Below are positions 27,230 to 42,862 of a stretch of DNA of 64,000 nt, piece by piece. Source of the DNA: Bacteroidales bacterium. Lineage in GTDB: Bacteria; Bacteroidota; Bacteroidia; Bacteroidales; Tenuifilaceae. Location of the stretch: positions 62,001 through 126,000 of the forward strand of contig JABFRB010000016.1 in the NCBI GenBank assembly GCA_013141385.1, in the 5' to 3' direction. The stretch's first letter is position 1; each line of letters starts with the position of its first letter. Under the pieces are notes generated by a model. The model worked only from the letters and a program-made list of their open reading frames with translations. It did not search any database and had not been told where the DNA came from. Position numbers and translations under genes: made by a program.

Positions 27230-29422
27230 TTAAAGTTCCAGCTGGTTTTTTACTAATGTATAGTACGCACCCTTCCTCTCGCTTAATTCCTTATGCGTAC
27301 CCACTTCAACCACCTTCCCTTTTTCCAGTACAACTATCTGATCTGCATTTTTAACTGTACTTAAACGGTGCGCTACAACAATAACCGTCCTACCTTTGAA
27401 AAACTCCTGCAAGTTTTCTAAAATAACCTTCTCGTTGTTAGCATCAAGCGCATTCGTCGCCTCATCGAAAAAGATAAACTTTGGATCTTTATAAACTGCA
27501 CGGGCAATAAGAATTCTTTGCTTCTGTCCTTGGCTCAGTCCATGACCTTCACCACCAATCTTTGTATTATAACCAAGTGGCAGCGAATCTATAAAATCAG
27601 CAATATTGGCAACGTTAGCAGCATGAAGCAATTTTATCTTATCAACCCTATCAACCCCAGGAGCAATATTATTTGCAATAGTGTCTGAAAATATGAATCC
27701 ATCCTGCATCACCACACCACATTGCTCTCTCCAACGACTAATACTAAATGCAGTAAGGTTATTTTCTCCAATCCGAATTTCTCCTTTAACAGGTGGATAG
27801 AAACCAAGAAGGAGCTTAATAAGTGTGGTCTTTCCACTTCCCGATGTACCTACAATAGCTGTTTGTTTACCAGATTCAATTCTAATATTAATATCATCAA
27901 GCACCAGATTTGAGTCTGGCTCGTCATAACGAAATCCAAGATTGCTCAGCTCAATGCTTTTATCATCAGGTATATCATTAATCCGTGAATCTTCAATATC
28001 CTCTTCATCGTTTCGAAGGTGTATTTCGCCAAGCCTTTCAAGACTTATCTTTGCATCCTGGGTTAAGTTAAAAAATGATATCAGCTGGTCAATCGGGCTG
28101 TTTAGCTGACCTATGATGTACTGTACAGCAAGCATCATACCCAAAGACATATCACCATCCACCACGCTCTTCGCCGCTATTACAGTAATAAAAATGTTCT
28201 TAATCTCATTGATAAGGACAGCTCCACTTTGCTGGTACTGGCTAAGAGCAAGACCCTTTACACTTACCTTGAATAGTTTTGCCTGAATACGCTCCCACTC
28301 CCAACGTTTCTGCTGCTCACAACTATTCAGCTTAATCTCCTGCATTCCCTGTATCAGCTGAATTACATTGCTTTGGTTTGCAGCCATCTGTGCGAATCGA
28401 CGGTAGTCTAACTCCTCTCGTTTCTTCATGAAAAGCCAAACCCAAAGGGCATAAATAGTACTTCCAAAAAGAAATATTGAGAAAATCATCACATTATAGT
28501 AAAGCAAAACTGCACCGAATATAACTAGATTGACCAGCGAAAACATTACATTCAGCGTAGTACCAGTCAAAAAACTCTCTATTCGCTTATTATCATTAAT
28601 GCGTTGAATTAAATCACCAACCATTTTGGCATCGAAATAACCCATGGGTAGGCGCATCAACTTAACTAGAAAGTCAGATATAAGGGATATATTTATTCGT
28701 GTTCCTAAATGCAGTAGTATCCATCCTCTTATAAACTCAACTGACACACGACTAAGGGTTAGTACCATCTGAGCAATTAGCACAAGGTAAATAAAACCAA
28801 TATTGCGGTTACCAATACCCTTATCAACTATACTTTGAGTTAGGAAGGGAAAAACCAATTGAAGTAAGCTACCAAGAATTAGCCCAAGTAAAAGTTGGGT
28901 TATTAATTTTTTGTAGGGACGAAGGTAGTTGAACAGGAAACGGAAACTCTTCTTATTAGGTTTTTCGTCTTGTGCCGAATAAAAATCAGGAGAGGCCTCA
29001 AGAAGTAGTGCCACACCACGCTTTTCGCCTTCCTCAACAGTCGAAACCCAGCAACGAACAAATTCTTCACGAGGGAAACTCACTAGTCCACCACCAGGAT
29101 CCGAAACATGAACAATCTCTTTACCCTTTTTTCCTGTAATATTATAAACAACAACAAAATGGCTCTGATTCCAATGAACAATGGCTGGTAGAGGTGCCTC
29201 TTTCAACAACTGCTCAAAGCTGATTTTAACCCCCATTGTACGAAAACCGATGCTTTCGGCTGCACGGCTAATTCCAAGCATACTAACCCCCTCGCGGGTT
29301 ATATAGCAACGCTCCCGTAAAGTCTGAATATTATAATGCTTACCATAGTATCGTGCTACAATCCTTAGGCATGTTGGACCGCAGTCCATTGCATCGGGTT
29401 GGTGGTAGTGGGGGAAAGACAT
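27230..29422 (-). CDS. peptidase-containing ABC transporter (C39, bacteriocin/peptide exporter)
   Basis: 730 residues. The C39 domain (1-130) has the oxyanion Gln8, catalytic Cys14 (DCGPTC), His88 and Asp108 (VSDPGGG), so the leader peptidase should be active. An ABC membrane domain (about 160-450) follows. The ATPase carries Walker A GTSGSGKTT (525-533), signature LSQGQ (629-633), Walker B FIFFDEA and H-loop His685. Such transporters cleave double-glycine leaders while exporting the peptide. The hlyD gene follows after 210 bp and the candidate substrate is the peptide at 25254-25397. It starts about 260 bp after clpP on the same strand, past a terminator. Confidence 0.93.
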   Translation of the reverse strand: MSFPHYHQPDAMDCGPTCLRIVARYYGKHYNIQTLRERCYITREGVSMLGISRAAESIGFRTMGVKISFEQLLKEAPLPAIVHWNQSHFVVVYNITGKKGKEIVHVSDPGGGLVSFPREEFVRCWVSTVEEGEKRGVALLLEASPDFYSAQDEKPNKKSFRFLFNYLRPYKKLITQLLLGLILGSLLQLVFPFLTQSIVDKGIGNRNIGFIYLVLIAQMVLTLSRVSVEFIRGWILLHLGTRINISLISDFLVKLMRLPMGYFDAKMVGDLIQRINDNKRIESFLTGTTLNVMFSLVNLVIFGAVLLYYNVMIFSIFLFGSTIYALWVWLFMKKREELDYRRFAQMAANQSNVIQLIQGMQEIKLNSCEQQKRWEWERIQAKLFKVSVKGLALSQYQQSGAVLINEIKNIFITVIAAKSVVDGDMSLGMMLAVQYIIGQLNSPIDQLISFFNLTQDAKISLERLGEIHLRNDEEDIEDSRINDIPDDKSIELSNLGFRYDEPDSNLVLDDINIRIESGKQTAIVGTSGSGKTTLIKLLLGFYPPVKGEIRIGENNLTAFSISRWREQCGVVMQDGFIFSDTIANNIAPGVDRVDKIKLLHAANVANIADFIDSLPLGYNTKIGGEGHGLSQGQKQRILIARAVYKDPKFIFFDEATNALDANNEKVILENLQEFFKGRTVIVVAHRLSTVKNADQIVVLEKGKVVEVGTHKELSERKGAYYTLVKNQLEL

Positions 29423-29628
29423 CAGAAACTAAAATTAATTACTTATTTGATAATAATTATTTTACAAAAAATAAAATTGTTTCAACTCTAAAACCTATTA
29501 TATTAAACAAAAATAGAATTAAATGAATTAAAACAGAGATTTTGAGTGGATATTTAATATAAAAAAAATTCTCTAACTTTCAATATCTTTGAATATAAGA
29601 CACTTATCCAAACATTTATCGCTAAAAA

Positions 29629-29656
29629 ACCTGTCAGGTTCCTTTTCCTGACAGGT
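29629..29656 (-). terminator. terminator after clpP
   Basis: Arms ACCTGTCAGG (29629-29638) and CCTGACAGGT (29647-29656), with a U6 tail on the minus strand. It separates clpP from the downstream exporter genes, so those need their own promoter. Confidence 0.8.
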
Positions 29657-29680
29657 CTAAAAATATAATATCGTTAAATG

Positions 29681-30364
29681 CTATTTATTCTCAATTCTTA
29701 CCAATACTTCATCAATCATACCATAATCCTTTGCTTCCTGGGCAGTCATCCAGTAATCACGATCAGAATCTTTTTGAATTCTCTCAAATGGGTTACCTGA
29801 ATGTTTAGCTACTATATTATAAAGTTCATCACGCAGTTTTAAAATCTCACGAGTGGTGATTTCAATATCTGAAGCTTGTCCCTCTGCTCCGCCCATTGGT
29901 TGGTGAATCATTACCCTTGAATGTGGAAGAGCTGTTCGCTTACCTTTTGCTCCTGCAGTGAGTAATACAGCTCCCATTGATGCAGCCATTCCTGTACAGA
30001 TTGTTGCCACATCGGAACTTATGTACTGCATTGTATCGTAAATTCCTAGTCCTGCATAAACAGAACCACCCGGTGTATTAAGGTAGATTTGAATGTCTTT
30101 GGATGGATCCGAAGATTCAAGGAAAAGGAGTTGAGCTTGAATAATATTTGCAACATCATCATTTATTGGAACTCCTAAGAATATTATCCTATCCATCATA
30201 AGGCGCGAGAAGACATCCATGGTTGCGATGTTAAGCTGGCGCTCCTCGATAATAGTTGGAGAGATATAGTTACCATGCATAGATTGAAAATTATGCAGTG
30301 TTAAACTACTAATTCCACGATGCCTGATGGCATACTTTTCGAATTCACTATTTTTTTGGCTCAT
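29681..30364 (-). CDS. clpP: ATP-dependent Clp protease proteolytic subunit ClpP
   Basis: 227 residues; serine peptidase forming the 14-mer barrel that works with ClpX. Catalytic triad: Ser129 (GMAASMGA), His154 (MIHQPMGG) and Asp203 ([11 protein letters not shown]). The N terminus is about 20 residues longer than the E. coli mature form, as usual in Bacteroidota. It follows tig with a terminator between them and has its own -7 box. Confidence 0.97.
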
Positions 30365-30417
30365 ATATTATGGTTTTTATTTTAATGGTTTCAAAAAAAA
30401 ATTATTTGATGTAAATT

Positions 30418-30425
30418 CAAAGATA
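30418..30425 (-). promoter_or_regulatory. -7 box for clpP
   Basis: CAAAGATA on plus, TATCTTTG on minus, 54 bp upstream of clpP; matches TAnnTTTG. Confidence 0.4.
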
Positions 30426-30480
30426 AACCCTTTTTTTTAATGTTGGTTTTTAAATAACAGCAATGAGGTTAAATAGTTTT

Positions 30481-30514
30481 AAAAAAAAGACCGATAGATT
30501 TATCTCTACCGGTC
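30481..30514 (-). terminator. terminator after tig
   Basis: Arms GACCGATAGA (30489-30498) and TCTACCGGTC (30505-30514), with one G-U pair and a U8 tail on the minus strand. Confidence 0.75.
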
Positions 30515-30536
30515 CAATTTTATTAATCATCAATCT

Positions 30537-31883
30537 TTATTTAAGATTGTTAAACTCATCCGTGGTTACTTCCTTCTCATCGAGTTTAACGGCCTCTCTT
30601 ATCACTGCAACAGCCTTATCTTCAATGAGTTTTTCTTGGATTCTTCGCTTTTCACCATCTTTCTTCAAAACGCTATCGGCATAGCTAACTAAATATTCAT
30701 CTGGCATCTGGCTCATACCATAAGATGCGAATTGATTACGTGCAAAATTCATGGCAAATCCGTGAATCTCTTCCTCGGTAACGGTTAGGTTGTTCTCCAT
30801 AGCAACCTTATCTCGAATTAGCTGCCACTTTAGATCTTTCTCAAACATAGGAAACTCCGTTTCGATCTGCTCACGAGTATGTTTCCCTTCGTTTACGGCA
30901 ACTAACCAACGAATTAAGAAATCTTTTGGGAGTTCAATCTTAAACTTCTCAATCAATTTATCTTTTAAATCTATTAATAAACGATAGTCACTCTCGTGTA
31001 CAAGGTTTTTGCTTATCTCCTCATCCAATTTGCTATTGAACTCTTTCTCGTTATTTATTACTCCTTCTCCATAAACCTTATTAAAAAACTCCTGATTTAG
31101 TTCTGCTTTTTCAAAAGTCAACGTTTCGGTTACAGTTAGCTGAAATTGAGGTTCAACATTGGTTAATTTTTCTTTGGCAATATGAAGTAATGCTGCTCTA
31201 TCCGCAACATTTGGGAATGATTTTAACGTATCAATAGTAACAACATCCCCAGCCTTTAAACCAATTAACTTTTTTTTCTCATCCTCATTGGCCACCAAAG
31301 CGATTGAGATTGAAGCACCTTCAACAAAAACGCCACCCTCCTTTGGAGATTCATCTGGGTTAAGCTCATTTAGGGTTGCTTTAACCAAATCATTTTCTGC
31401 AGTAATTTCTACAGGTTTGTAACTTCCATTCCTACGACGATAGCTATCGGAGTATATTTCGCGAAGTTTATCATCAACTTTAATAGAATAGTAGGGAATT
31501 TTATCGCGCTTACTAAATTTTAATTCAAACTCAGGAACTAAACCAAGATCGAATGCAAATTCAAAATTTTCCTCTGTATCCCAATCTATTTGTTTTTGTT
31601 GTTCGCTCGGTAATGGTTCACCAAGGATATTCAACTTTTGCTCAACAAGGTACTTAGAAAGTGATTCTGAGATTATCTTATTTACCTCATCTACAAGAAT
31701 GGGTTTACGATACAACTTATTGATAAGAGATGTTGGAGCGTGCCCTGGTCTAAAGCCTTTAATAGTCGCTTTTTTACGATAGTCTTTTAGCGTCTCCTCC
31801 ACTTTAGGATCATAGTCTGCCTTATCAATTTTAACTTTTAGCACTGCGTTCAGCGCATCTATTTCTTCCTTTAAAATATTCAT
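30537..31883 (-). CDS. tig: trigger factor
   Basis: 448 residues; ribosome-bound chaperone for nascent chains. The N terminus matches Bacteroidota trigger factors (MNILKEEIDALNAVLKVKI) and includes the ribosome-docking segment KGFRPGHAPTSLI (the G-F-R-x-G signature). A weak FKBP-like middle region and an alpha-helical C-terminal substrate cradle follow. It lies upstream of clpP, the usual order tig-clpP-clpX. Confidence 0.95.
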   Translation of the reverse strand: MNILKEEIDALNAVLKVKIDKADYDPKVEETLKDYRKKATIKGFRPGHAPTSLINKLYRKPILVDEVNKIISESLSKYLVEQKLNILGEPLPSEQQKQIDWDTEENFEFAFDLGLVPEFELKFSKRDKIPYYSIKVDDKLREIYSDSYRRRNGSYKPVEITAENDLVKATLNELNPDESPKEGGVFVEGASISIALVANEDEKKKLIGLKAGDVVTIDTLKSFPNVADRAALLHIAKEKLTNVEPQFQLTVTETLTFEKAELNQEFFNKVYGEGVINNEKEFNSKLDEEISKNLVHESDYRLLIDLKDKLIEKFKIELPKDFLIRWLVAVNEGKHTREQIETEFPMFEKDLKWQLIRDKVAMENNLTVTEEEIHGFAMNFARNQFASYGMSQMPDEYLVSYADSVLKKDGEKRRIQEKLIEDKAVAVIREAVKLDEKEVTTDEFNNLK

Positions 31884-32015
31884 TAACTAATTCATTTAGA
31901 TTACTTAACTCAAATTTTGTGATAAATGATTGAAACCTGTTTAAAAAATCAGTGACATAACACTGAAAATCTTTATCGTTCTGAAATACAATTTTGTAAT
32001 CAATTTTAAAGCTGA

Positions 32016-32047
32016 CAAAGGTAGAAAAATGAGATATAAGAAACAAA
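32016..32047 (-). promoter_or_regulatory. promoter of tig
   Basis: On the minus strand: TTTG (32044-32047), 20-bp spacer, TACCTTTG (32016-32023). It is a full match to the Bacteroidota consensus and gives a leader of about 125 nt before tig. Confidence 0.7.
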
Positions 32048-32142
32048 TGATAAAAAAATGATTTCAAGAACCATTTTTCTATCACTACAACAGTTTGATT
32101 TTATGTTATTTAATATTTTTTTTTCAAATTGTAAAAAAAACC

Positions 32143-32190
32143 GTGTCACCTTTTATGGTTTATGGAATATATAGATGAAGGGTCATTCTA
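32143..32190 (+). promoter_or_regulatory. shared promoter block, copy B (TPR gene)
   Basis: GTGTCAC (32143-32149), TTTTAT, GTTT, TGGAATATATA (32163-32173) and TGAAGGG (32176-32182), matching copy A at 25177-25225. It is about 240 bp before the TPR gene start, so that mRNA would have a long leader. Confidence 0.7.
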
Positions 32191-32430
32191 CTTAATAGAC
32201 AAATTGGTATTTATTAAGAGTTTTAAAGAAAATCTATAGTTGAATGCAAAGAATGAAATGGACTTTTTAAGTTGATTAATAGATACTTAATTTTTTTCTA
32301 TTAGACTTTAAGGGCTTATAATTTTTCAAGATTAAATTTAAAAACTCACACAAGAATAAATCTAAAGAGTAAACATATAGATTAAGAAAACACAACTAAC
32401 AAAACTCCGGAAATTAATAAATCAAAACCA

Positions 32431-33201
32431 ATGATTGATAGAAACACTCAACGATTAATTGAAAAGCTAATAGATGGCTCAATTAGTAAGAAAGAGGGTC
32501 AAACTCTATCGAATAAAATTGAAACGGACGTTTCATTAAAACGAGAATTTGAACTTAGAAAAGAACTAGAAACTATTGCTGCCGAAGAAGAAATTTTTCA
32601 GTTAAGACAAAAACTGCAATTAGTGGCTGCCTCGACTTCTAATTCTCTCGTCAATAGAGGTCATACCTTTAAGAAAGGTAGTATTAGGAGATATTTATAC
32701 TATGCAGCTGCACTTTCTGGTATTACTTTAGGAGGATGGGGTGCTTTAACATTGACCAATAAAACAGTTGATCCAACAAGGGTTTATCTTGATAACTTCC
32801 AACCTTATCCAGCAGTTACTGTTGTCCGCTCTGGAGGTGAATTAAATCTAGATAGTATCTTTTTTAGTGCAATGCTATCATATCAAAAAGGAGATTACAA
32901 TTCAGCAATCGTTGATTTCAAAAAAGTTATTGAGATTAATCCTAATGCATTTACTGTTCAGTTCTATTTAGGGATTACCTATATGGAATTGCTTGATTTT
33001 GAAAAAGCACATGAAAATTTAATTGCAGTTGCAGAATCAAATTCTCTTTTTAGAGATCAAGCACTCTGGTATTGCGGACTTTGCTATTTAGGTGAATTTA
33101 AGGTTGAAAAAGCGAAAACGATTTTCTTAAACTTATCAAATTCAAATTCTCCTCTTGGGCAAAAGGCAACTAACCTTCTTAGAGATTTATCTAATGGATA
33201 A
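32431..33201 (+). CDS. membrane-anchored TPR protein, anti-sigma-like N terminus
   Basis: 256 residues. The N-terminal helical part (MIDRNTQRLIEKLIDGSISKKEGQTL) resembles the cytoplasmic segment of anti-sigma-like proteins. One transmembrane helix follows at about 87-107 (YLYYAAALSGITLGGWGAL), then an external region and two to three tetratricopeptide repeats (about 143-250: LSYQKGDYNSAIVDFKKVIEINPNA, FYLGITYMELLDFEKAHENL). It shares a promoter block with the double-glycine peptide gene, so a role in the same system is likely. In other Bacteroidota, as I recall, similar TPR proteins sit near CHAT-TPR genes and sigma factors. Exact function unknown. Confidence 0.75.
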   Translation: MIDRNTQRLIEKLIDGSISKKEGQTLSNKIETDVSLKREFELRKELETIAAEEEIFQLRQKLQLVAASTSNSLVNRGHTFKKGSIRRYLYYAAALSGITLGGWGALTLTNKTVDPTRVYLDNFQPYPAVTVVRSGGELNLDSIFFSAMLSYQKGDYNSAIVDFKKVIEINPNAFTVQFYLGITYMELLDFEKAHENLIAVAESNSLFRDQALWYCGLCYLGEFKVEKAKTIFLNLSNSNSPLGQKATNLLRDLSNG

Positions 33202-33279
33202 AAATTAATTTTCAAAAAATGATTTACCAATTAACGGTTTCGGAACCGATTTTCCATAACTGAACTATAAATTACCGCC

Positions 33280-33648
33280 ATGAAAACAGAATTACTCGAA
33301 GGTGTTAAGGAAAGAGAAAAAGATCTAGCGTCTTTTATCCTAAACAAAAGTTATGAAAGAATTAATTACTTTGAATCTGATGGAATTTTAACTTACATCG
33401 TTCTTGAAGATGGTTCACGAGTTAAAATTGACTTGTTTTTACATCAACTCGAAAAAGTATTATCCCCAAAGGTTTTTTACCGCTGTGGATGGTCTTTCAT
33501 CGTTAACCTTACAAAGATTCATGAATACTGGGTATTAGAATATCCTTTTTTGGTAATGGAGAATGGAGAAATTATACCAGTTCCTCAATCAGAAAAAGAT
33601 GCTATTAGCGGGTTGATTTCAAGAGAGTTGATAATGAGGAAGGATTAG
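33280..33648 (+). CDS. LytTR-type DNA-binding protein without receiver domain
   Basis: 122 residues, almost entirely a LytTR domain: INYFESDGILTYIVLEDGSRVKIDLFLHQLEKVLSPKVFYRCGWSFIVNLTKI is the typical pattern (YxExxxxYxxL...F.R.H.SFxVNLxxI). No phosphoacceptor receiver and no membrane helix. LytTR proteins often regulate bacteriocin and peptide-pheromone genes. It follows the TPR gene by 78 bp, with an AACGGTTTCGGAACCGATT inverted repeat in between, and may be in the same transcript. Confidence 0.82.
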   Translation: MKTELLEGVKEREKDLASFILNKSYERINYFESDGILTYIVLEDGSRVKIDLFLHQLEKVLSPKVFYRCGWSFIVNLTKIHEYWVLEYPFLVMENGEIIPVPQSEKDAISGLISRELIMRKD

Positions 33649-33767
33649 GTTTTTTCTTAAATACGTTAAAATCTTTATCTTCTTTTAAACACACTGAGGA
33701 AAGTGATTCTTTTTGTGTTTATATGGGAATTAGTATTTCTTGTTAAATATTTAATGTGCAATTATAA

Positions 33768-35354
33768 TTATTCGGACTTAACAAATTCTGTTTTTGTTTT
33801 TATTCGTGATAACGCCTGATTGATTTTTTCTTCAGGCGTTATTATGTTGTAATCACCCCAAAATGATTCATCAAAACTAAATTTAGAATCAACAAGTATT
33901 GCATTTGTTTTAAAAATCTCTTCTCTATTGAACTTAACTACGTTTAATGTATCAATTTGGCAACTAGCAAGTTCTAAAAAAACTTGAAAATCGTTGGAAA
34001 AAAGGTGGTATCGTTTTTTATATCTAATGCTTAAATCACCGCGAATATGGTTGATATAATATTTCCCATTCCAAGAACTATAATAAATTGAGTAAAAAAT
34101 CTTTTCTGGCGTTACATTAAACTTTCTACTTCTCTTTACTATAAAAAGATCATCAGCATTCCTTAAATACTTGGGATTTACCTCAAAATCAGCCTTAAGC
34201 AAAGCAAAATTTTCCACATCAATGTAAAGAACTCCTTTGAAAAGAGGTTCGGTAATATTTTCTTTCTGTTCAAATGCTATAACATAAACATTACGTGAGT
34301 CTAAAGAAACAATATCCTCCTTTGAATAATTATAACTATCCGTATACTCTGGATCAATAAAATCAGGAATGTTTTTAACTAAATCTAAAGTCAAGCAACT
34401 TCTTATTCCTGCTTTAATTTTAAGCACCAATGTATCGTGCTGGTCGATGTTAACAATTTTTCTAGATTTGAGAAGTTTAACCTGATCTGATTCAAAGATT
34501 CTATAATATGGTGATTTATAAATTTTCATAACCGCTTCGGAATAGTTTAAATATTTGCTATTCTTTAAAACACCTTCCCTATAAAAACTCGTCATGTAAA
34601 CTGATTCACCACTATAGTTTACCGAACGGTTACGAAAAACTTTATATACTATATCTCGAGGATCAATATTTCGAATAATTACCTCTTGAAGTGATATATA
34701 TTCTGTTTCTAAATAAATATCGGCCTTTTGATCAACAAGCAATCTTACAGGTATATATTGGCTTTTATATCCAAGATGTGATATTGTTAATTGTGTGTGT
34801 TTTAAAAATGATGGTATTCTCAAAGTAAAAAATCCATCATAATTACTTACTGTTCCAATATTTTTTTCGGCAATACCAACAGCAACAAAGGGTAACGGTT
34901 TTTTTGTTAATTTATCAAGTATTAGCCCATTAATACTTATTGATAGTGTAGAATCTTTCGTTACCGATTCATTTTCAATTTTTTGAACCTTTTTTCTATA
35001 TACTAGAATATGCTTTTCGATAACTTTAAAATCAAGAGTATTATCAGCAAGTACTTCAGAAATAATCTGTCTAAGTGTTTTATTATCAGCATTAATTGTT
35101 ACTATTTTGTCGTTATCAACTAGTCGACTGTCATAAATAAAGAAATACCCTGTTGCATCTGTAATTTGATTTAACAGGTTATAAATAGTATTCCTTTGCT
35201 CCTTTATTATGATTTTTTGATCAAGAACAGGTTCTTGGGCATAAACTTGATTTATTGAATTCCCTGAAAACAAAAAAAGCAGAGTTACCGAAATTATTCG
35301 GTAATAAACTGCTTTATGAATGGCATTCGATTTTACTATATCTCTATTTTTCAA
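33768..35354 (-). CDS. STN plus carboxypeptidase-regulatory-like domain protein, no TonB barrel
   Basis: 528 residues. Signal peptide (to about 39, VYAQ), then an STN/secretin-TonB short domain (about 45-115: TIYNLLNQITDATGYFFIYD...LRQIISEVL), a CarboxypepD_reg-like beta-sandwich (about 138-215: INGLILDKLTKKPLPFVAVGI...GTVSNYDGFFTLRIP) and a C-terminal region of about 300 residues homologous to the protein at 37166-38428. STN domains usually sit at the front of TonB-dependent transducers that signal to FecR; here no barrel or plug follows. It starts 11 bp inside the FecR gene end, so sigma-FecR-STN forms one operon. Confidence 0.8.
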   Translation of the reverse strand: MKNRDIVKSNAIHKAVYYRIISVTLLFLFSGNSINQVYAQEPVLDQKIIIKEQRNTIYNLLNQITDATGYFFIYDSRLVDNDKIVTINADNKTLRQIISEVLADNTLDFKVIEKHILVYRKKVQKIENESVTKDSTLSISINGLILDKLTKKPLPFVAVGIAEKNIGTVSNYDGFFTLRIPSFLKHTQLTISHLGYKSQYIPVRLLVDQKADIYLETEYISLQEVIIRNIDPRDIVYKVFRNRSVNYSGESVYMTSFYREGVLKNSKYLNYSEAVMKIYKSPYYRIFESDQVKLLKSRKIVNIDQHDTLVLKIKAGIRSCLTLDLVKNIPDFIDPEYTDSYNYSKEDIVSLDSRNVYVIAFEQKENITEPLFKGVLYIDVENFALLKADFEVNPKYLRNADDLFIVKRSRKFNVTPEKIFYSIYYSSWNGKYYINHIRGDLSIRYKKRYHLFSNDFQVFLELASCQIDTLNVVKFNREEIFKTNAILVDSKFSFDESFWGDYNIITPEEKINQALSRIKTKTEFVKSE

Positions 35355-36360
35355 TAGGTTTAATAATTATGGTTGAATCAGGAGTTTCTTCAACCTCTAA
35401 GTTAAGCGATAAGCAAATAAGCTCAGTTATGGTTTTGAGTGAATTATTATAGAAAGTAACAGTTAATTTTCTTTCACCAAGTAATTGGTTTTGTAACTGA
35501 ATGCTTGTTTTATAGTTTTTATTAATCACCTTAATAATATTACTTAAAGATTCATCTTTAAACTGCATTCTTTGTGTTTTCCATAAAAAATAGGCGGAAT
35601 TGTTATTGACGACCTTAACAAGATGGTTATTACTTGTAGATATTTTCTCACCAGGAAGTACAATCTGTGTTTGAGAGGGGTCGCTTTTTAATGTAACTCG
35701 AACCTTTCCTCGTTCAACTACAAGTTCAAATTGGTTACTATTCAATGTTTTTACATTAAAAGCGGTTCCTAAAACTTCAACAATAACTTTTTCGGTCTCA
35801 ATTCTAAAAGGTTTTTGGGGATTAGATGTGATATCGAAAAAGGCTTCTCCCTTTAGGTTAACTTTTCTTTCTTTTGTGTCAAACTCGGAGGGGTAAGAGA
35901 AAGTTGTATTATTTGCCAAATAAATAACTGAGCCATCTGTAAGTGTCTGAATTAGAGTATTTGAATCACCGCCTGTTTGTAAACTTATCAGATTGGTATT
36001 ACTTTTGGTAATTGAATAAAACGAAAGACCTGCAATAACCATCAATGTAACAAATGAAGCAGCCCACTTAGCCCAAGTAGGAATTACTCTATGTTCAATA
36101 ATTCTATTACTAGGAATTAGATCTTCTGTGTTTAATCTGTTATAAAGTGTTTGCCAACCTTTATTGGTGTCAACTTCTTTCTTTTTTTGGTAACCTCCTA
36201 TTTGCTCCCACTGTTTCTTCATCTCTTCAATAAGGTTTTTGTTTTCAGGAAAAGTTTCGATTTGTTTTTCGAATTGAAAAACATCTTCATTGCTCATCTC
36301 TCCTGCAAAATATCTAGCAATGAGCTCGAAATCTTTTGTATTATTTATATCTAGTTTCAT
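35344..36360 (-). CDS. FecR domain anti-sigma factor (DUF4974 C-terminal domain)
   Basis: About 338 residues from the ATG at 36360; an ATG at 36396 would overlap the sigma gene by 17 bp. A cytoplasmic N terminus (DFELIARYFAGEMSNEDVFQFEKQI) binds sigma. One transmembrane helix (AKWAASFVTLMVIAGLSFYSI) is followed by the FecR domain (LTDGSVIYLANNTTFSYPSEF...GEAFFDITSNPQKPFRIET) and a DUF4974 domain near the C terminus. It transmits a periplasmic signal to the ECF sigma factor encoded just upstream. Confidence 0.92.
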   Translation of the reverse strand: MKLDINNTKDFELIARYFAGEMSNEDVFQFEKQIETFPENKNLIEEMKKQWEQIGGYQKKKEVDTNKGWQTLYNRLNTEDLIPSNRIIEHRVIPTWAKWAASFVTLMVIAGLSFYSITKSNTNLISLQTGGDSNTLIQTLTDGSVIYLANNTTFSYPSEFDTKERKVNLKGEAFFDITSNPQKPFRIETEKVIVEVLGTAFNVKTLNSNQFELVVERGKVRVTLKSDPSQTQIVLPGEKISTSNNHLVKVVNNNSAYFLWKTQRMQFKDESLSNIIKVINKNYKTSIQLQNQLLGERKLTVTFYNNSLKTITELICLSLNLEVEETPDSTIIIKPIEK

Positions 36361-36379
36361 AGTAGTCGGATTAATCCGT

Positions 36380-36934
36380 TTAGCATACCAGCTCATTGTA
36401 ATGTTTCAAATTCTTTCGAAAAAGCTGTAAGGCTTTACCCATATTTGCTTCAACGGTTTTTATAGAAATTGATAACTTCTCAGCAATTTCATTATATTTC
36501 AACCCCTCGAATCGGCTTAGCTTAAAAATTTGGCGACACCTTTCGGGTAATTCGTTTAATGTAACTTCAATAATCTCGTTTAATTCGCTTACTTCAAGTT
36601 CATTTGATTCAAAACTTGCTTCGGAACTATTTGTTTCCTTAAAGTTTTGTTCGTATTTTTTCACAACCCTTAAATGCTCCAAATACTTTAATGAATTATT
36701 TCGTATTGCACGAAACATATAGGATTTTATTGAAATCTGAATATTCATCGTTTGCCTGTTTTTCCAATAGTTATAGAAAAATTCTTGGACTATCTCTTCT
36801 GCCAAATCCATATCCTTAAGAAACCTAAATGCATAATGACAAAGCGGTGAGTAGAGTGATTTAAAAAGCATTTCAAATTCTTTTAAATCGTCCTGTTTAA
36901 TTCTTGTCTGTTTCAAAAATCCCGCTAGTTGCAT
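36380..36934 (-). CDS. ECF RNA polymerase sigma-70 factor
   Basis: 184 residues with region 2 (YSPLCHYAFRFLKDMDLAEEIVQEFFYNYW) and region 4 helix-turn-helix (LPERCRQIFKLSRFEGLKYNEIAEKLSISIKTVEANMGKAL). This is the FecI-like type of Bacteroidota, paired with the FecR gene downstream. Usually such pairs control a SusC/SusD locus, but none is present. Candidate targets are the genes with the shared TATA-NN-TGAAGG element, which is inference. Confidence 0.93.
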   Translation of the reverse strand: MQLAGFLKQTRIKQDDLKEFEMLFKSLYSPLCHYAFRFLKDMDLAEEIVQEFFYNYWKNRQTMNIQISIKSYMFRAIRNNSLKYLEHLRVVKKYEQNFKETNSSEASFESNELEVSELNEIIEVTLNELPERCRQIFKLSRFEGLKYNEIAEKLSISIKTVEANMGKALQLFRKNLKHYNELVC

Positions 36935-37000
36935 CGTACGTTGTAATGTTTGATAATTGTAAAGGTAATTCTTTTATATTATTTGCTAAAAAAACACGAT

Positions 37001-37145
37001 TAAAGCTATCCCGTTAAATCCAATCTAATTTTGAAAACCCAACTAAAAAACCCCACATGCAATGTATTTATTTTGCTTTTACTTACCATGTGGGGGTTTA
37101 TCTATCACTTTTCCATATACTTTAAATGTTTAACGAGATAGCTTT
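37001..37145. repeat. outer inverted repeat enclosing the terminator
   Basis: AAAGCTATCCCGTTAAA (37001-37017) and TTTAACGAGATAGCTTT (37129-37145) are complementary at 15 of 17 positions and flank the terminator hairpin, giving a nested cruciform of about 145 bp. Confidence 0.6.
37048..37099 (-). terminator. terminator after the CarboxypepD-like gene
   Basis: Arms CCCCACATG (37051-37059) and CATGTGGGG (37087-37095), followed on the minus strand by a U6 tail. It lies about 70 bp after the stop of the gene at 37166-38428. Confidence 0.8.
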
Positions 37146-37165
37146 AATTTAAAATTAATTTTGAA

Positions 37166-38428
37166 TTACTGTTTTTTAAATCTTTTATTGAATTTATTTA
37201 TCGCTGATTGAATAGATTCATCGGGTACTATAGTATTGTATTCACCCCAGTAATCTTGGTCGAAATACTCATTTACTTTATCAGCAAACACTGTGTATTG
37301 TTTAAACGATTCTTTCATTGGGAATTTTTCAATATTATCTGATTTTCTTTCAGTTACTGCCATTTCAGACATTACTGTATAGGTAGTTTTAAATATTCTT
37401 TTTTTCCAATCGCATGAAAACTTGACTTCATTGCGAACATAATTTATGTAATACTTCCCATTTTGTTCTTTGTAGGTTACCAAGTAGCTGGTGTTTGATG
37501 GAATGAATCTTAAACCCAAGGGTTTCTTCTTAACAAAACTTTGTGCAGCTTTAATTTCATCTTTTAAATCGAGACTAAACTCAGCCATTGTTATAGCTTT
37601 ACTATCTTTTGATATATATATTTTGCCGAAGTAAAGAGGATACTCAAGAGTTACAATTGGTTGAAATCCTATTACATAGTTCATTTTACCGTCAATATTA
37701 ACCATGTCCAGATATTCGTATTTATAATAATCGATGCTCTCTTTAGAAAGTAATACATCTGGATTCTTTACAATATCAAGTAGTAACGAAATATTTGGAC
37801 CACCAACAAGCTTTACAGTAAGGGTATCAAATTTTTTAACATTCGTTCCTTTTCTTCCCTTAAATATTTTTACTCTATCAGAACTATAACCAGAGTTATA
37901 AGGTGCTTTATATATATCAATTATTGCTTCAGAAATTGATACATAATCTCTACGTTGTTTAATTGTTTCACGATAAAAACCAGTAAGTAAGTTAGGATCT
38001 TGGCTATAGTTATCCTGAATACTGCCAATAGCCTGAAGAACAAGACTACGAGGATCTTCTGGTTTTACAACAAGTTCCTTTAATTCAATGGAATAGGGAT
38101 CAACAAAAAAGGTTTGTTCTCCCTGAGGGTTATCAACTACGCTAAATTTCTTATTCACATAACCTAAATGTGATACTTCGAATTCGGGTGCATTCAGTGA
38201 TTTTTGTACTTTAAGAGTAAATTCCCCATCCGAATTCGATACGGTACCAATATTAGTTCCTGGTACAGAGATACTCGCAAAAGTAATTTTTTGCTTTGTT
38301 TTAGAGTCTTTTATAACACCATTTACAGTAAAGAATGTGGTGTTGTTCTGAGCATATGAATAGCTAAATCCTATTATCAGGAGTGCTATAAAGCTCAACT
38401 TGGTAAATCGCTTAATAAAAGTATTCAT
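37166..38428 (-). CDS. carboxypeptidase-regulatory-like domain protein, paralogue of the STN protein
   Basis: About 420 residues from the ATG at 38428, which gives a standard signal peptide ending near YSYAQ; an ATG at 38455 would add nine residues. A CarboxypepD_reg-like domain (about 25-105: VNGVIKDSKTKQKITFASISVPG...GTVSNSDGEFTLKV) precedes a long C-terminal region that aligns with the protein at 33768-35354 (shared DPR, GFYRE/SFYRE, YYKY/YNYS, NGKYYINYVR/NGKYYINHIR, and YWGEYNTIVPDE / FWGDYNIITPEE). Probably envelope-located. Function unknown. Confidence 0.78.
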   Translation of the reverse strand: MNTFIKRFTKLSFIALLIIGFSYSYAQNNTTFFTVNGVIKDSKTKQKITFASISVPGTNIGTVSNSDGEFTLKVQKSLNAPEFEVSHLGYVNKKFSVVDNPQGEQTFFVDPYSIELKELVVKPEDPRSLVLQAIGSIQDNYSQDPNLLTGFYRETIKQRRDYVSISEAIIDIYKAPYNSGYSSDRVKIFKGRKGTNVKKFDTLTVKLVGGPNISLLLDIVKNPDVLLSKESIDYYKYEYLDMVNIDGKMNYVIGFQPIVTLEYPLYFGKIYISKDSKAITMAEFSLDLKDEIKAAQSFVKKKPLGLRFIPSNTSYLVTYKEQNGKYYINYVRNEVKFSCDWKKRIFKTTYTVMSEMAVTERKSDNIEKFPMKESFKQYTVFADKVNEYFDQDYWGEYNTIVPDESIQSAINKFNKRFKKQ

Positions 38429-38463
38429 AATTTTTATATTTAAATTGTTAAACATTGAATTTC

Positions 38464-38570
38464 AACCTTCACTTATAAGACCGCAATCCAATAATATACC
38501 CTATTTTTTCCTGTTTTTATTAATTAAGCTGAATATTAAACACCTAAACAACTCTTTATAAGTGAAGGTT
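38464..38570. repeat. 15-bp inverted repeat upstream of the CarboxypepD-like gene
   Basis: AACCTTCACTTATAA (38464-38478) and TTATAAGTGAAGGTT (38556-38570), perfectly complementary with a 77-bp spacer. Each arm contains TATAAGTGAAGG, which matches the TATA-NN-TGAAGG part of the promoter blocks at 25177 and 32143. One arm points to the CarboxypepD-like gene, the other to aroK. Confidence 0.65.
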
Positions 38571-38711
38571 AATTTATCTTAGAAATTTCAAAAATAGGTA
38601 ATGAGAAAAAGGAGTCCTCATATTGCAATATTCAATTATATCGCTATTTAAACTAAAATTATTAACTTGTAAAAGTTCTTCAATTAGTTATTGACCATAA
38701 AAATTGTATGT

Positions 38712-39224
38712 ATGAAAATTTACCTTATTGGTTTTATGGCAAGCGGAAAAACAACCGTTGGGCTTGAATTGGCAAAAACACTCAATTATGAATTCATTGA
38801 CCTTGATGTATATATAGAACAAAAGTATAATAAAACCATTAAGCAAATTTTTGAACAAAAGGGAGAAGATCATTTTCGAACTCTTGAAAATGAGGCACTG
38901 CGTGAAGTTTCTTCAATTGATGGTAATATTCTTATTGCTTCAGGAGGGGGTACTTCCTGCTTCTATAACAGTATTGATTTTATGAACAAAACGGGATTAA
39001 CCATTTATATTAAGGTTGATGTTGGGGAATTGGTCTCTCGGCTCATAGAATCAAAGACAGATCGTCCTTTGCTTTGGGGGAAAACGCCCCAAGAACTTAA
39101 TGATTATATTTTAAGGGTACTTAATGAACGAGAAAAGTATTACGAAAAAGCAAAAATTACTATTGAGTCTTCAAATATTAGTATTGACCAACTAGCACAA
39201 ACTATCAATGCAGCAATTGGTTAA
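38712..39224 (+). CDS. aroK: shikimate kinase
   Basis: About 170 residues from the ATG at 38712; a TTG at 38691 would be an unlikely longer start. It phosphorylates shikimate at O3 with ATP in the aromatic amino-acid pathway. P-loop GFMASGKTTVG, shikimate-binding IDLDVYIE, HFRTLENEAL and ASGGGTSC motifs are visible, followed by the lid (TDRPLLWG) and the adenine-binding NEREKYYEKA. Monocistronic as far as can be seen. Confidence 0.94.
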   Translation: MKIYLIGFMASGKTTVGLELAKTLNYEFIDLDVYIEQKYNKTIKQIFEQKGEDHFRTLENEALREVSSIDGNILIASGGGTSCFYNSIDFMNKTGLTIYIKVDVGELVSRLIESKTDRPLLWGKTPQELNDYILRVLNEREKYYEKAKITIESSNISIDQLAQTINAAIG

Positions 39225-39315
39225 TTCTTTTATATTATTATTTTTTTGAATGCAAAGTTTACTTCTGATTTTTATCGATTTGGTTTAAACCTACAAAATT
39301 CTTAAAATTTTAAAT

Positions 39316-40350
39316 ATGGCGAACCTTGAAACAACCTACATGGGGTTGAAGCTCAGAAACCCTCTTATTGCAGGCAGCTGCGGTCTTACAGATTCCTTAA
39401 CGAACATTAAAGCAATTGCTGATAATGGGATTGGTGCAATTGTCATTAAATCGATGTTTGAGGAGCAAATTCATATTGAGACTGAAAAGTACATAAAAAA
39501 TGGGCAGGGTAATGTTAACACTTCAACAAAAACTGCCGATAATCTTATTGGTAAAAGAATTTACGATTACGACGAGGCTTACTCATATATATACGATTAT
39601 GCCAAGAACAATACTTTAGAAAAATACCTATCGCTAATAAGTGAGGCAAAGAAAAGTATCGACGTTCCAATTATTGCAAGTATAAACTGCGTTTCCAACT
39701 ATGATTGGCAGTCATTTGCAAAAAGAATTCAGGATGCAGGTGCAGATGCACTTGAACTGAATATATACATCCTTCCATCCGATTTCCGCCGAAGTGGTGA
39801 TGAAAATGAAAATGTATACTTTGATATAATTAATGAGGTTAAAAAGTTTATTACAATACCCTTTGCTGTTAAGATTGGTTACTATTTCTCATCACTTGCT
39901 CAAACTGTTCAAAAACTTTCGGAGACAGGCACAAAAGGATTGGTTCTATTTAATAGACCATACAACACTGATATCGATATTGAAAAAATCAGCTTATCCG
40001 CTGGAAACATTTATAGTTCCGATTTTGAATACAACCATACGCTTCGGTGGATTTCGATACTATCGGGGAAAATAAGTTGTGATCTTTCCGCATCAACTGG
40101 CGTTCACAACTATGAAACTGCGATAAAAATGTTACTAGCTGGAGCAACCACGGTACAAATGGCTTCTGTTTTTTATAAGCACGGATTTATAGTAGTAGGT
40201 GATTTTCTTGCAAGGATGAACGATTGGATGAATCGGCACCATTTCAATAGCATTTCTGATTTTAGAGGAAAACTAAGCAAGAATAACCTTGAAAACCCCG
40301 CTGCAATTGAGCGAGTTCAGTTCATGAAACTTTATTCTGGTATTGAATAA
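39316..40350 (+). CDS. dihydroorotate dehydrogenase-like protein
   Basis: 344 residues, a TIM-barrel flavoprotein fold. The start MANLETTYMGLKLRNPLIAGSCGLTDS, the DADALELNIYI-like segment (AGADALELNIY), IPFAVKIGYYF and the C-terminal phosphate/FMN loop region (LAGATTVQMASVFYKHG) fit the family annotated as dihydroorotate dehydrogenase-like. These homologues are distinct from true PyrD, so the substrate is unclear. No pyrimidine genes are adjacent. A clear terminator follows. Confidence 0.85.
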   Translation: MANLETTYMGLKLRNPLIAGSCGLTDSLTNIKAIADNGIGAIVIKSMFEEQIHIETEKYIKNGQGNVNTSTKTADNLIGKRIYDYDEAYSYIYDYAKNNTLEKYLSLISEAKKSIDVPIIASINCVSNYDWQSFAKRIQDAGADALELNIYILPSDFRRSGDENENVYFDIINEVKKFITIPFAVKIGYYFSSLAQTVQKLSETGTKGLVLFNRPYNTDIDIEKISLSAGNIYSSDFEYNHTLRWISILSGKISCDLSASTGVHNYETAIKMLLAGATTVQMASVFYKHGFIVVGDFLARMNDWMNRHHFNSISDFRGKLSKNNLENPAAIERVQFMKLYSGIE

Positions 40351-40371
40351 TTTGTTTCTTTAAATATTTAG

Positions 40372-40402
40372 CCGCTCTGCTTTTTAGGCAGGGCGGTTTT
40401 TT
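40372..40402 (+). terminator. terminator after the dihydroorotate dehydrogenase-like gene
   Basis: Arms CCGCTCTGC (40372-40380) and GCAGGGCGG (40388-40396), one G-U pair, followed by T6. Confidence 0.85.
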
Positions 40403-40526
40403 ATTGCTTTAATTGACAGTATAAAAATTATTTAGCCTTGAATTTTTGTAGCTTTACAAAAAAATCCCAAAGGATTCAATCCTATTATATTCCTAAAAAC
40501 AAAACCATCAATTAAGAACATATACA

Positions 40527-41336
40527 TTGAGATATTTTTTACATATTGGGTATAATGGATTCAACTACCGTGGATGGCAGCGACAACATGAAGTATTAAG
40601 CATTCAGGAAGTACTTGAAACAAATCTTAGTAAACTCCTGAAAACACCTATTATCTGCTTGGGTTGTGGGAGAACAGATGCTCAGGTTCATGCAAGCCAA
40701 TATTTTTTCCATATGGACGTTGATAAAGAGTGGGATTTTGACCTCATTTTCCGTTTAAATAAAATGCTTTCGGAGGACATAGCCATTTTTGAAATCATTC
40801 CAATGGAGGGTTATCCCCATGCTCAATTGGATGCAATAAAACGAACATACGACTATTTTATTCACACATACAAAGATCCTTTTTTAAGTGGACTAAGTTC
40901 TTATTACCCACTAAAAAATCCAAATCTCAGTAAAATGAAAGAAGCCACTAATCTGCTTCTCAAGTACAACGATTTTGGAGCATTCTGTAAAAGTCCTGAT
41001 AAAAATCCAAGCAATGTTTGTAATGTAACATCTGCAATACTATTCTCTGATAAGAACGGTGATAGACTAAGGTTTCAAATTTCATCTAACAGATTTTTAA
41101 AGGGTATGGTAAGAATTATTATCAAAAAAATTATGGAGGTAGGTACAGACGAACTCAGTTTAGATGAATTTGAAAGTTATCTCGCTCTTAAAAAAATCCC
41201 CTTAAAAACAGTTCCAGCATACCCTCAAGGGCTTTACCTTTCCAAAGTCACATACCCCTTTCTCGATATACCTCCTAGAACAGAATTCTCCACCATCTTT
41301 CAGAATAAGGTAGACAATACATGGCTACAATTGTAA
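40527..41336 (+). CDS. truA: tRNA pseudouridine(38-40) synthase
   Basis: 269 residues. Isomerises uridines 38-40 in tRNA anticodon arms. The catalytic Asp is in CGRTDAQVHASQY; RWQRQ-like RGWQRQHEVLSIQEVLE, FKSPDKNPSN-like CKSPDKNPSNVCNVTSA and RFLKGMVRIIIKKIMEVG are typical. The frame has no ATG at its beginning; translation appears to start at TTG (40527), which gives the expected MRYFLHIGYNG N terminus. No Shine-Dalgarno sequence is evident. Confidence 0.92.
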   Translation: MRYFLHIGYNGFNYRGWQRQHEVLSIQEVLETNLSKLLKTPIICLGCGRTDAQVHASQYFFHMDVDKEWDFDLIFRLNKMLSEDIAIFEIIPMEGYPHAQLDAIKRTYDYFIHTYKDPFLSGLSSYYPLKNPNLSKMKEATNLLLKYNDFGAFCKSPDKNPSNVCNVTSAILFSDKNGDRLRFQISSNRFLKGMVRIIIKKIMEVGTDELSLDEFESYLALKKIPLKTVPAYPQGLYLSKVTYPFLDIPPRTEFSTIFQNKVDNTWLQL

Positions 41337-41594
41337 TGGAATCTACTGAAATTCAATTCCATTAATTCAGTTACGTTTTTTATCCATTTTAACCATTTAA
41401 TTATTAGGTATTAATCCCTCGTTTGATTGAAGATTTAAAGTTTTTCATCGAACAAAAAAGCCTATTGGTGTGTTAAAATAAGCATTAAACAAAAGTTCCA
41501 ATTTTATAGGATTTTCATAAACCCATTCGGAAGATTTACAGTTTTTTGTCAATAAATAATTTGCGATCAAAATTTAGCACCATAAATAAGTACT

Positions 41595-42008
41595 ATGCAA
41601 ACTTTATTAACAATTGTTTTCTGGCCTTTTCTAGTATATACTTTTATTGTTTTAGTTATTGTTGGTGTAATGATTGGTCTTTCTTACGTTTTAGGCGAAC
41701 GCCATAACGATAAACTAACCAATGAACCATACGAGTCAGGAATACCACCCACGGGGAATGCACGCCTTAGATTTTCATCCCATTTTTATTTAATCGCGAT
41801 ATTCTTTGTGATATTCGATCTCGATGCCGTTTTTGTTATGGCTTGGGCCGTATCATTTCGTGAACTTGGAATTGCCGGGTATATAGGAATTCTGGTATTT
41901 ATTGCAATCCTAATGGTAGTACTATTCTATGAATTAAGTATTGGTGCACTTGATTTTGGGCCAAATGGCAAACGTATTCTGAAGTTTAAAAACAAACTGA
42001 CAAAATGA
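41595..42008 (+). CDS. nuoA: NADH-quinone oxidoreductase subunit A
   Basis: 137 residues, three transmembrane helices. The conserved loop [48 protein letters not shown] is unmistakable. First gene of the complex I operon. It overlaps nuoB by 4 bp (ATGA), implying translational coupling. Confidence 0.96.
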
Positions 42009-42640
42009 ATTGGACACTAAATAAACCTAGTGATATCATTCAAAACCCCGACAATGCTATTATTGATGCAGCAATTCAGCGTTCAATTTTGTTTAGTCGC
42101 TTAGATGATATGGTTGCCTGGGGTCGTAAAAATTCTATTTGGCCTTTTGCATTTGGCCTTTCGTGCTGTTTTGTTGAAATGGCCACTTCAATCACGAGCC
42201 GTTACGACATCGCTAGGTTTGGGGGTGAAGTTATTCGCGGAACACCACGCGAAGCGGATTTGATGATAATTGCCGGAACTGTTTTTATTAAGATGGCGCC
42301 TATCATTAAAAGGCTTCATGAGCAGATGATGGCTCCTAAATGGGTTATATCAATGGGTTCGTGCGCAAACTCTGGTGGAATGTTTGATATCTACAGCGTT
42401 GTTCAAGGTGTGGATAAAATAATTCCTGTTGATGTTTACGTTTCGGGCTGCCCTCCTCGCCCCGATGCTTTCCTTGAAGGATTATTGCTTCTTAGAGAAT
42501 CAATCGATAAGGAGAAACGACCATTGAGTTGGGTTATTGGTCCACAAGGAATAACAAGAGCGGAGAAGATATCTCAACGGGATTTAAAGACCGAGGAGCG
42601 AATGAAAGTTGATAAACTTAGACCAATGGATGAGGTGTAA
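42005..42640 (+). CDS. nuoB: NADH-quinone oxidoreductase subunit B
   Basis: 211 residues. Carries the terminal [4Fe-4S] cluster N2 that passes electrons to quinone. Ligands are in [19 protein letters not shown] and [17 protein letters not shown]. It has C- and N-terminal extensions compared with the shortest bacterial forms. nuoCD follows after 222 bp that contain a palindromic element. Confidence 0.97.
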
Positions 42641-42720
42641 CCTTTATTTTAAGAAATATCTTATATTATTAGTATCTGTCTTTAATGTAAGATTTTTTTG
42701 AATTGAGAACAAGGAACAAC

Positions 42721-42790
42721 GATTAACGATTTATGAAATATGCATAATCAAATGTTTTATTACTACTTCTAAAATCAAAAATCGTTAATC
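42721..42790. repeat. inverted repeat between nuoB and nuoCD
   Basis: GATTAACGATTT (42721-42732) and AAATCGTTAATC (42779-42790) are perfectly complementary over 12 bp around a 46-bp spacer. It lies inside an otherwise continuous operon. Confidence 0.6.
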
Positions 42791-42862
42791 AATATTCGTA
42801 GATTATTTTATAAAGCATATTGAATAAGTATCAACTCAGGCTGATTTACCAATAATAAAGTC

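Follow-up and report, generated by a model that had tools for sequence, protein, structure and literature searches.

When an extracytoplasmic function (ECF) sigma factor and a FecR-type anti-sigma factor are encoded in an operon that lacks a TonB receptor, which protein supplies the signal? This question is raised by a 64-kb window of DNA (the whole stretch that was analyzed; Tenuifilaceae, Bacteroidales; GenBank GCA_013141385.1, contig JABFRB010000016.1), whose positions serve as coordinates below. Four minus-strand genes at 33768-38455 are transcribed in the order P429, ECF sigma, FecR and STNp, where P429 and STNp denote two proteins with a CarboxypepD domain. The original prediction of a sigma/FecR pair lying between two paralogous CarboxypepD proteins is borne out at this place by the open reading frames (ORFs) and by Pfam and NCBIfam matches. 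We consider it probable that the four genes form one autoregulated signaling unit, with STNp acting as a soluble sensor of envelope stress in the periplasm and P429 as an effector. Comparison among genomes shows a conserved gene order, a sigma-linked motif before P429, the lack of a barrel, and a predicted LolA/RseB-superfamily domain.

A conserved operon without a TonB receptor

The first gene, P429 (37166-38428, minus strand), encodes a putative signal peptide, a CarboxypepD domain (~38066-38326; Pfam CarbopepD_reg_2, 53.6 bits) and a predicted LolA/RseB-like domain (~37310-38059), with no match to STN. Its ORF opens at 38455, yet the start at 38428 is preferred because the ATG at 38455 is absent in the nearest relative. 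The ECF sigma factor (36380-36934, minus strand) scores 177.1 bits against a cut-off of 126.4 with TIGR02985, the NCBIfam model for the Bacteroidota RNA polymerase sigma-70 group, and so ranks as a FecI-type sigma of this phylum. Its gene overlaps, at 36380-36396, that of the FecR-type anti-sigma factor (35344-36396, minus strand), which contains FecR (60.9 bits) and FecR_C (35.3 bits) domains and one hydrophobic (transmembrane) stretch from residue 112. STNp (33768-35354, minus strand) begins with a TTG within the 3' end of fecR, creating an overlap of 11 bp, and carries an STN domain (~34992-35141; PF07660, 34.5 bits, cut-off 28.4), a CarboxypepD domain (~34674-34934; CarbopepD_reg_2, 59.5 bits) and a predicted LolA/RseB-like domain (~33915-34667). 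No TonB receptor was noticed among the ORFs of 28000-44000, where Pfam was run on the six ORFs of 32431-38455 only.

More typical systems exist in the same genome, wherein FecR_C is found at six places and STN at four. The original prediction held that sigma/FecR pairs in Bacteroidota usually control a SusC-like transducer, and one of the other FecR operons does have this usual form: on contig C23 a sigma-FecR pair is followed by genes for a 1101-aa protein that combines STN, CarboxypepD, plug and barrel and for a SusD protein. On contig C6, a sigma-FecR pair precedes an 887-aa FecR_C-or-STN/CarboxypepD protein whose plug match is weak (22.0 bits, below the cut-off). Since the usual architecture is present in this genome and is recognized by the same models, the operon of the window is an exception. 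The C6 locus (L177:3380-8616) also carries, after its sigma-FecR-STN receptor, a second FecR gene without a sigma factor of its own.

The arrangement is nevertheless no local oddity. Among 27 genomes of the family, including that of the window, STNp is matched in 24 (E<=1e-15), of which 21 preserve the order of the complete four-gene set. The remaining matches comprise a locus cut by a contig end (L086), one cassette spread over two contigs (L067/L091) and a locus with P429 only (L085). A second set, the best 80 of 223 confirmed stretches retrieved with a P429-family alignment, shares several genomes with the first, so that the counts are not additive; it includes gut species of Bacteroides along with Phocaeicola, Parabacteroides, Tannerella, Paludibacter, Perlabentimonas and many metagenome-assembled genomes. 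The whole cassette is present at 61 of these 80 named loci. The STN copy is split into separate ORFs at three (L129, L147, L153), another locus reaches the contig edge after fecR (L118), and two carry P429-sigma-fecR without an adjacent STN copy (L123, L138). P429 stands alone at 13 of the 80, two of them on short contigs (L110, L171). Median gaps at the named loci are 61 bp for P429-sigma, -4 for sigma-fecR and 10 for fecR-stn, and we therefore conclude that the genes form an operon. The possibility raised against the original prediction, that this is merely the common form of the operon, thus proves half right: it is the normal form of this particular operon throughout Bacteroidales, and P429, upstream of sigma, is probably co-regulated with it. 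No P429 relatives were found in viral contigs.

Two paralogues with a predicted LolA/RseB-like fold

P429 and STNp align over 391 aa, across both CarboxypepD and the C-terminal domain, with 34% identity (E 2e-71), and this alignment includes both of the short motifs that had first suggested their kinship. The further claim that STNp has no barrel also holds. No Pfam or NCBIfam plug or barrel model matches STNp or P429, and the 25 families recorded across 83 relatives include neither; both do score in the same-genome control protein on C23. TIGR04056 reaches only 37.9 bits on STNp, against a cut-off of 368, and does so over CarboxypepD alone.

The C-terminal domain is not named by Pfam or NCBIfam, and the predicted structure of STNp shows a LolA-like sheet in place of a barrel. 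Models based on 83 aligned relatives for STNp and 41 for P429 have a mean predicted local distance difference test score of 85.5 and 84.2, respectively. Residues ~136-221 of STNp match a SusC N-terminal extension (9hfj; Z 13.2, root-mean-square deviation (rmsd) 1.7, 80 aligned). For residues ~229-480, Foldseek retrieves a DUF1329 protein (4z48, E 1.0e-07), a LolA-superfamily protein (3buu, 2.9e-06), P. gingivalis LolA3 (9tp6, 3.2e-06) and RseB (3m4w, 1.0e-05), while VIA-align pairs the same region with LolA3 (9tp6; Z 10.1, rmsd 4.4, 183 aligned), 3bk5 (Z 9.7, rmsd 5.0, 188), MucB (6in8; Z 8.8, rmsd 3.5, 148) and RseB (3m4w; Z 8.0, rmsd 3.8, 146). The P429 model leads to the same superfamily, with MucB (6in9, E 2.2e-07) as its best Foldseek match and LolB (9tpm; Z 8.7, rmsd 3.8, 174 aligned) found by VIA-align. 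Lipid-transfer barrels of lipovitellin, MTP and ApoB appear in the match lists of both models. Furthermore, Pfam LolA_like is weakly matched, at E 0.089 in STNp and at E 0.0021 in the best of four matching relatives among the 83. Given that both models and both programs converge on a coherent series of lipid-binding families, and that the weak LolA_like match agrees with them, we assign the C-terminal domain of both proteins, as a prediction, to the LolA/LolB/RseB/MucB superfamily.

Sequence searches of the PDB returned CarboxypepD and SusC N-terminal domains plus chance matches, with no RseB or MucB chain among them. Matches of the P429 profile to casein kinase II (E 0.03-0.5) were dismissed as chance, since they cover a short stretch of an unrelated fold. 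The same genome also encodes an 822-aa DUF5686 protein (G000:C23, L174:978-3446). Like the window proteins, it has a CarboxypepD domain followed by a soluble region, which is partly homologous to theirs (24.8 bits with the P429 C-terminal profile), suggesting that DUF5686 proteins combine a LolA-like domain with a barrel. They differ in running ~400 residues further, probably as that barrel, and DUF5686 (PF18939) has no match in STNp or P429 at E<=1; 4 of the 83 relatives match it at E<=0.1.

The two genes had been proposed to have arisen by duplication. This is borne out, but the event was ancient rather than local. In a tree of 88 hand-picked rows and 391 columns, whose root was placed by hand on three distant rows, 32 of 33 STN copies form one group (Shimodaira-Hasegawa approximate likelihood ratio test (SH-aLRT) 95), a clade that extends over Bacteroidales. 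Copies without STN (40 of 44) group with eight orthologues of f40, a different family within the class (SH-aLRT 99), and the exceptions are the long-branched STN copy of L084 and four early P429-type copies. As judged from this sequence comparison, a single old duplication gave rise to STNp, the copy of the sensor type, and to P429, which lacks STN. None of the 11 f40 loci (L210-L220) has a cassette-type sigma or FecR adjoining, and one (L220) has a single FecR-type gene 4.2 kb away. It fits these data that P429 is the older, free-standing protein and STNp the derived sensor, a direction that, with the root set by hand, is argued and not proven. The neighbors of the solitary P429 orthologues (bshC, an aminotransferase, recQ, an S66 peptidase) offered no common functional clue. 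A third, distant member of 435 aa, with CarboxypepD and a related C-terminal region, is encoded in the window's genome at L175:2190-3497 (G000:C22), with no cassette-type sigma or FecR in the surrounding 12.5 kb.

A lipobox-like motif is present in only 4 of 85 P429-type ORFs and 2 of 61 STN-type ORFs. Given this rarity, the majority appear to be soluble in the periplasm and to have signal peptides of the ordinary type. The description of STNp as a 'receptor without a channel' can be sharpened: the protein is channel-less, and its predicted LolA/RseB-superfamily fold makes it look like a soluble periplasmic sensor and not an outer-membrane receptor.

A putative promoter motif that accompanies the sigma factor

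A predicted sigma-dependent promoter, TAGGGTATATTATTGGATTGCGGTCTTA, occupies 38476-38503 (minus strand), 47 bp before the likely P429 start, and its pattern has one match in the window where 0.24 would be expected by chance. K-mers were counted, with no pattern set beforehand, in the upstream sequence of P429 (260 bp, plus 40 bp) at 62 of 67 sigma-bearing loci, the other five having too little upstream sequence. TAGGGT occurs at 60 of the 62 (missing at L099 and L107), ATAGGGTA at 41 and the dyad TAGG-N19-TCTT at 38, while first-order Markov shuffles gave a maximum of 14 for any 8-mer (four shown) and of 12-16 for any dyad. The consensus, (A/G)TAGGGT-N17-TC(T/A)TA, lies ~70 bp before the ORF at most loci. 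At the 13 loci where P429 stands alone, TAGGGT is absent throughout (Fisher p 8e-13, relatedness ignored).

For 11 of these P429-alone loci and for L123 and L138, the genomes were searched for an STN copy (L110 and L171 were left out). Ten of the 11 have none. The eleventh (L167) has sigma-FecR-STN elsewhere, with ATAGGGTA-N16-TCTATA ~60 bp before sigma, and its P429 lacks the motif. Because the motif tracks the sigma gene in this way, the promoter seems to travel with the sigma operon.

In the genomes of B. cellulosilyticus, stercorirosoris, oleiciplenus and congonensis, ATAGGGT-N17-TCWTA has one match each, located before P429, against 2-4 in the reversed control. The other eight genome handles, of which G022 and G471 are one genome, have 2-8 matches each. 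The P429 site of B. xylanisolvens is missed by this form because it begins with GTAGGGT. Across 26 family genomes, ATAGGGTW-N16-TCWTA gives 56 matches versus 19 in the reversed control, and sixteen motif stretches were picked by eye for reading. In four unlike contexts (G004, G007, G013, G018), the motif lies 33-145 bp before the gene for a homologous exported protein of 332-341 aa (L323:190-1188, L324:2422-3447, L330:840-1865, L331:1257-2255), which we regard as a candidate second target. Other sites precede small lipoprotein-like or other exported proteins, and wider targets of the sigma factor are thus tentatively indicated. Some sites away from P429 were set aside as chance matches, several of them being inside ORFs.

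P429 may also have passed between sigma circuits. In three genomes without the cassette (L152, L156, L159), it comes fourth in a run of genes with gaps of 25-115 bp. The first three encode another ECF sigma factor, ~41% identical to a second Bacteroides sigma, a protein of 123-128 aa that has a single hydrophobic stretch, and an exported protein of 158-166 aa. A related trio of sigma, small membrane protein and small exported protein lies downstream of the cassette at seven Bacteroides loci (L128, L133, L158, L161, L163, L165, L172). P. vulgatus is described as having colitis-induced sigma/anti-sigma operons followed by Spy-like chaperones (PMC13114119), which are possible counterparts. The only link measured here is a weak similarity, of 33.5 bits among the small exported proteins and of 29.6 bits among the small membrane proteins.

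Two repeats and two neighboring genes are recorded here as side observations. A perfect 15-nt inverted repeat (38464-38478 and 38556-38570, 77 nt apart) brackets the predicted promoter and overlaps its -10 element; it could represent an invertible promoter or a hairpin, and it was not found in the three nearest relatives. Within the 231 bp that separate P429 from sigma in the window lie the two arms (36999-37018 and 37129-37148, 95% complementary) of a 20-nt inverted repeat, a possible attenuator or terminator, which occurs in a single copy in the genome and hence is not a repeated element. Adjoining the operon on the opposite strand are genes for a TPR protein of 256 aa, probably with a membrane helix (32431-33201), and for a 122-aa LytTR protein (33280-33648); G002 has both in the same position, while G003 and G004 do not.

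A proposed envelope sensor and its rivals

We propose that STNp is exported to the periplasm, where its LolA-like domain would bind an acylated or hydrophobic envelope component (a mislocalized lipoprotein, lipopolysaccharide or another lipid), as this fold does in RseB and MucB. Its STN domain would touch the STN-like C-terminal domain of FecR, as the FoxA signaling domain does with FoxR. Ligand binding would alter this contact, FecR would be proteolysed, and the freed sigma factor would transcribe P429-sigma-fecR-stn. P429, which has the same binding domain and no signaling domain, would take up or carry the same ligand and thereby close a negative feedback loop, and further targets have perhaps been added in some genomes. 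P429 is read as the effector on three grounds: its promoter, the binding domain that it has in common with STNp, and the absence of STN. We infer the ligand, the STN-FecR contact and the proteolytic step by analogy. In the MucB system, the cavity of the LolA-like domain is described as sensing lipid (lipid A) before MucA is freed (PMC7400510), and FoxA is described as being cleaved so that its signaling domain binds the FoxR C-terminal domain and protects FoxR (PMC11637429). STNp would unite these two activities in one protein.

The components of the unit are individually familiar. It shares with FecI/FecR/FecA-type systems such as FoxI/FoxR/FoxA an ECF sigma factor, a single-pass FecR with an STN-like C-terminal domain, an STN partner and a cognate promoter. 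However, the partner lacks the plug, the barrel and presumably the TonB contact, in place of which it has CarboxypepD and the LolA-like domain, and the operon is led by a second copy without STN. STNp consequently resembles TonB-dependent transducers (FecA, FpvA, or SusC with STN) in its STN domain, but not in plug or barrel. With RseB/RseA/sigmaE and MucB/MucA/AlgU it would share a periplasmic LolA-superfamily fold next to an anti-sigma factor, although here the anti-sigma is FecR rather than RseA, the contact would run through STN, no RseB C-terminal domain was seen in alignments that cover only the N-terminal part of RseB and MucB, and PDB sequence searches gave no match to their chains. 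The modeled fold also resembles that of Bacteroidota LolA and LolB (P. gingivalis LolA3 9tp6, LolB 9tpm), but the window proteins are not stand-alone carriers, since CarboxypepD is fused in both and STN in one. The Dma and Reo anti-sigmas of Bacteroides (partners of Das and EcfO sigmas) likewise belong to envelope-linked ECF circuits of Bacteroidota; as those circuits are described, however, the anti-sigma itself reaches the outer membrane via a barrel domain, whereas in the window sensor and anti-sigma are separate and barrel-less (PMC13088901, PMC13114119). More tentatively, and a little short of even confidence, we picture an RseB-like sensor of envelope lipids in Bacteroidales on a FecI/FecR chassis, in which a FecA-type partner would have lost its outer-membrane channel and acquired an RseB/LolA-type lipid-binding domain, and in which a near single-promoter regulon would be led by the signaling-less paralogue of the sensor. 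To our knowledge, this combination of known parts is a new variant of cell-surface signaling.

Several observations weigh against our proposal. The fold matches are remote, with VIA Z values of 6.5-10 for LolA, LolB, MucB and RseB chains at 4-13% identity, where models with no clear match typically reach 7-8, and the RseB and MucB alignments cover their N-terminal part only. Even a shared fold, as modeled, would not be proof of lipid binding. The promoter motif was discovered on the same loci used to count it, the Fisher value is blind to relatedness, and a looser motif, with 13 matches in the window's genome and 25 in the control that was reversed, is not enriched there. In the sigma-bearing genomes L123 and L138 the STN copy is located elsewhere, and the STN copy of L084 lies outside the STN clade with no sigma factor nearby. 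Lastly, no experiment on the unit was found in the open-licence literature.

What, then, could the unit be doing if STNp does not sense lipids? It might merely shield FecR from proteolysis, with the C-terminal domain as an anchor (to the outer membrane, to the BAM complex for barrel assembly, or to lipid) and with a signal such as lost STNp export. FoxA offers a precedent, in that its signaling domain protects FoxR after FoxA cleavage (PMC11637429), and one chain of the extended BAM complex of F. johnsoniae is a structural match for the CarboxypepD domain (Z 9.8, rmsd 2.8, 81 aligned). We regard this as unlikely, if worthy of some weight, and it leaves unexplained the presence, under the same promoter, of a second, STN-less copy of the domain pair. 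A similarly small share of our belief goes to the idea that both proteins are mainly Lol-like carriers or chaperones for outer-membrane building, with sigma/FecR providing nutrient or housekeeping control rather than a stress response. The modeled LolA-superfamily fold, a soluble region homologous to that of DUF5686 proteins and the solitary P429 orthologues elsewhere in the class are all consistent with such a role, but the STN fusion and the FecR linkage point to signaling, as does P429 in a second sigma operon in three genomes. Our own proposal and the carrier idea both draw on P. merdae, for which Table 2 of PMC12893687 lists two genes as lowered together by sialic acid: NQ542_RS07340 (log2 -2.23), annotated as 'carboxypeptidase-like regulatory domain', and NQ542_RS07355 (log2 -2.00), annotated as 'STN and carboxypeptidase regulatory-like domain'. 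The two tags are three steps apart, with room for exactly two genes between them, and from names and spacing this pair would be the cassette; the second product name shows that the STNp architecture already has an annotation name.

Somewhat less probable still is that STNp acts as an adaptor that relays to FecR the state of a TonB receptor encoded elsewhere. A candidate exists on contig C34 of the window's genome, where the motif (L263:2467-2494; G000:C34:69966-69993) lies 192 bp before a gene for a 1017-aa SusC-like protein, followed by one for a 494-aa protein that is SusD-like by position and lipoprotein start. This site is kept in G002. Upstream of a 41% homologue in G001, a near match that contains TCATT sits at a comparable distance, but the motif does not precede the 51% homologue in G004. 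Moreover, the strict motif occurs only before P429 in the four Bacteroides genomes, and gaps of at most 366 bp within the 61 complete cassettes are too short for a receptor gene. Finally, it is very improbable that the pair are decayed, non-working TonB receptors or DUF5686 proteins whose barrels were lost. The CarboxypepD domain and part of the soluble region are indeed common to the pair and the 822-aa DUF5686 protein, but order, length and invariant residues are kept across Bacteroidales, and split STN copies are confined to 3 of 80 loci.

No description of the unit was found in the open-licence literature. The available text of two papers on Bacteroidota LolA and LolB (PMC11885536, PMC13103446) does not mention FecR, RseB or carboxypeptidase-domain proteins, and that of PMC12596196 has nothing on FecR, STN or the promoter motif. 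BT4460-4462 was rejected as the B. thetaiotaomicron counterpart, as its third gene is given as an acyltransferase (PMC10434189).

Returning to the proposal of a lipid-responsive unit, STNp may be an unrecognized sensor of envelope stress. The outer membrane of Bacteroidota is loaded with surface lipoproteins, and we know of no obvious sigmaE/RseA/RseB system in this phylum. The unit may bear on how these bacteria sense faults in lipoprotein or lipid traffic. It occurs in common gut species with a recognizable promoter, and the proposal predicts which protein senses, which touches the anti-sigma and which gene responds. If it is true, then an STN signaling domain can work away from TonB-dependent transport.

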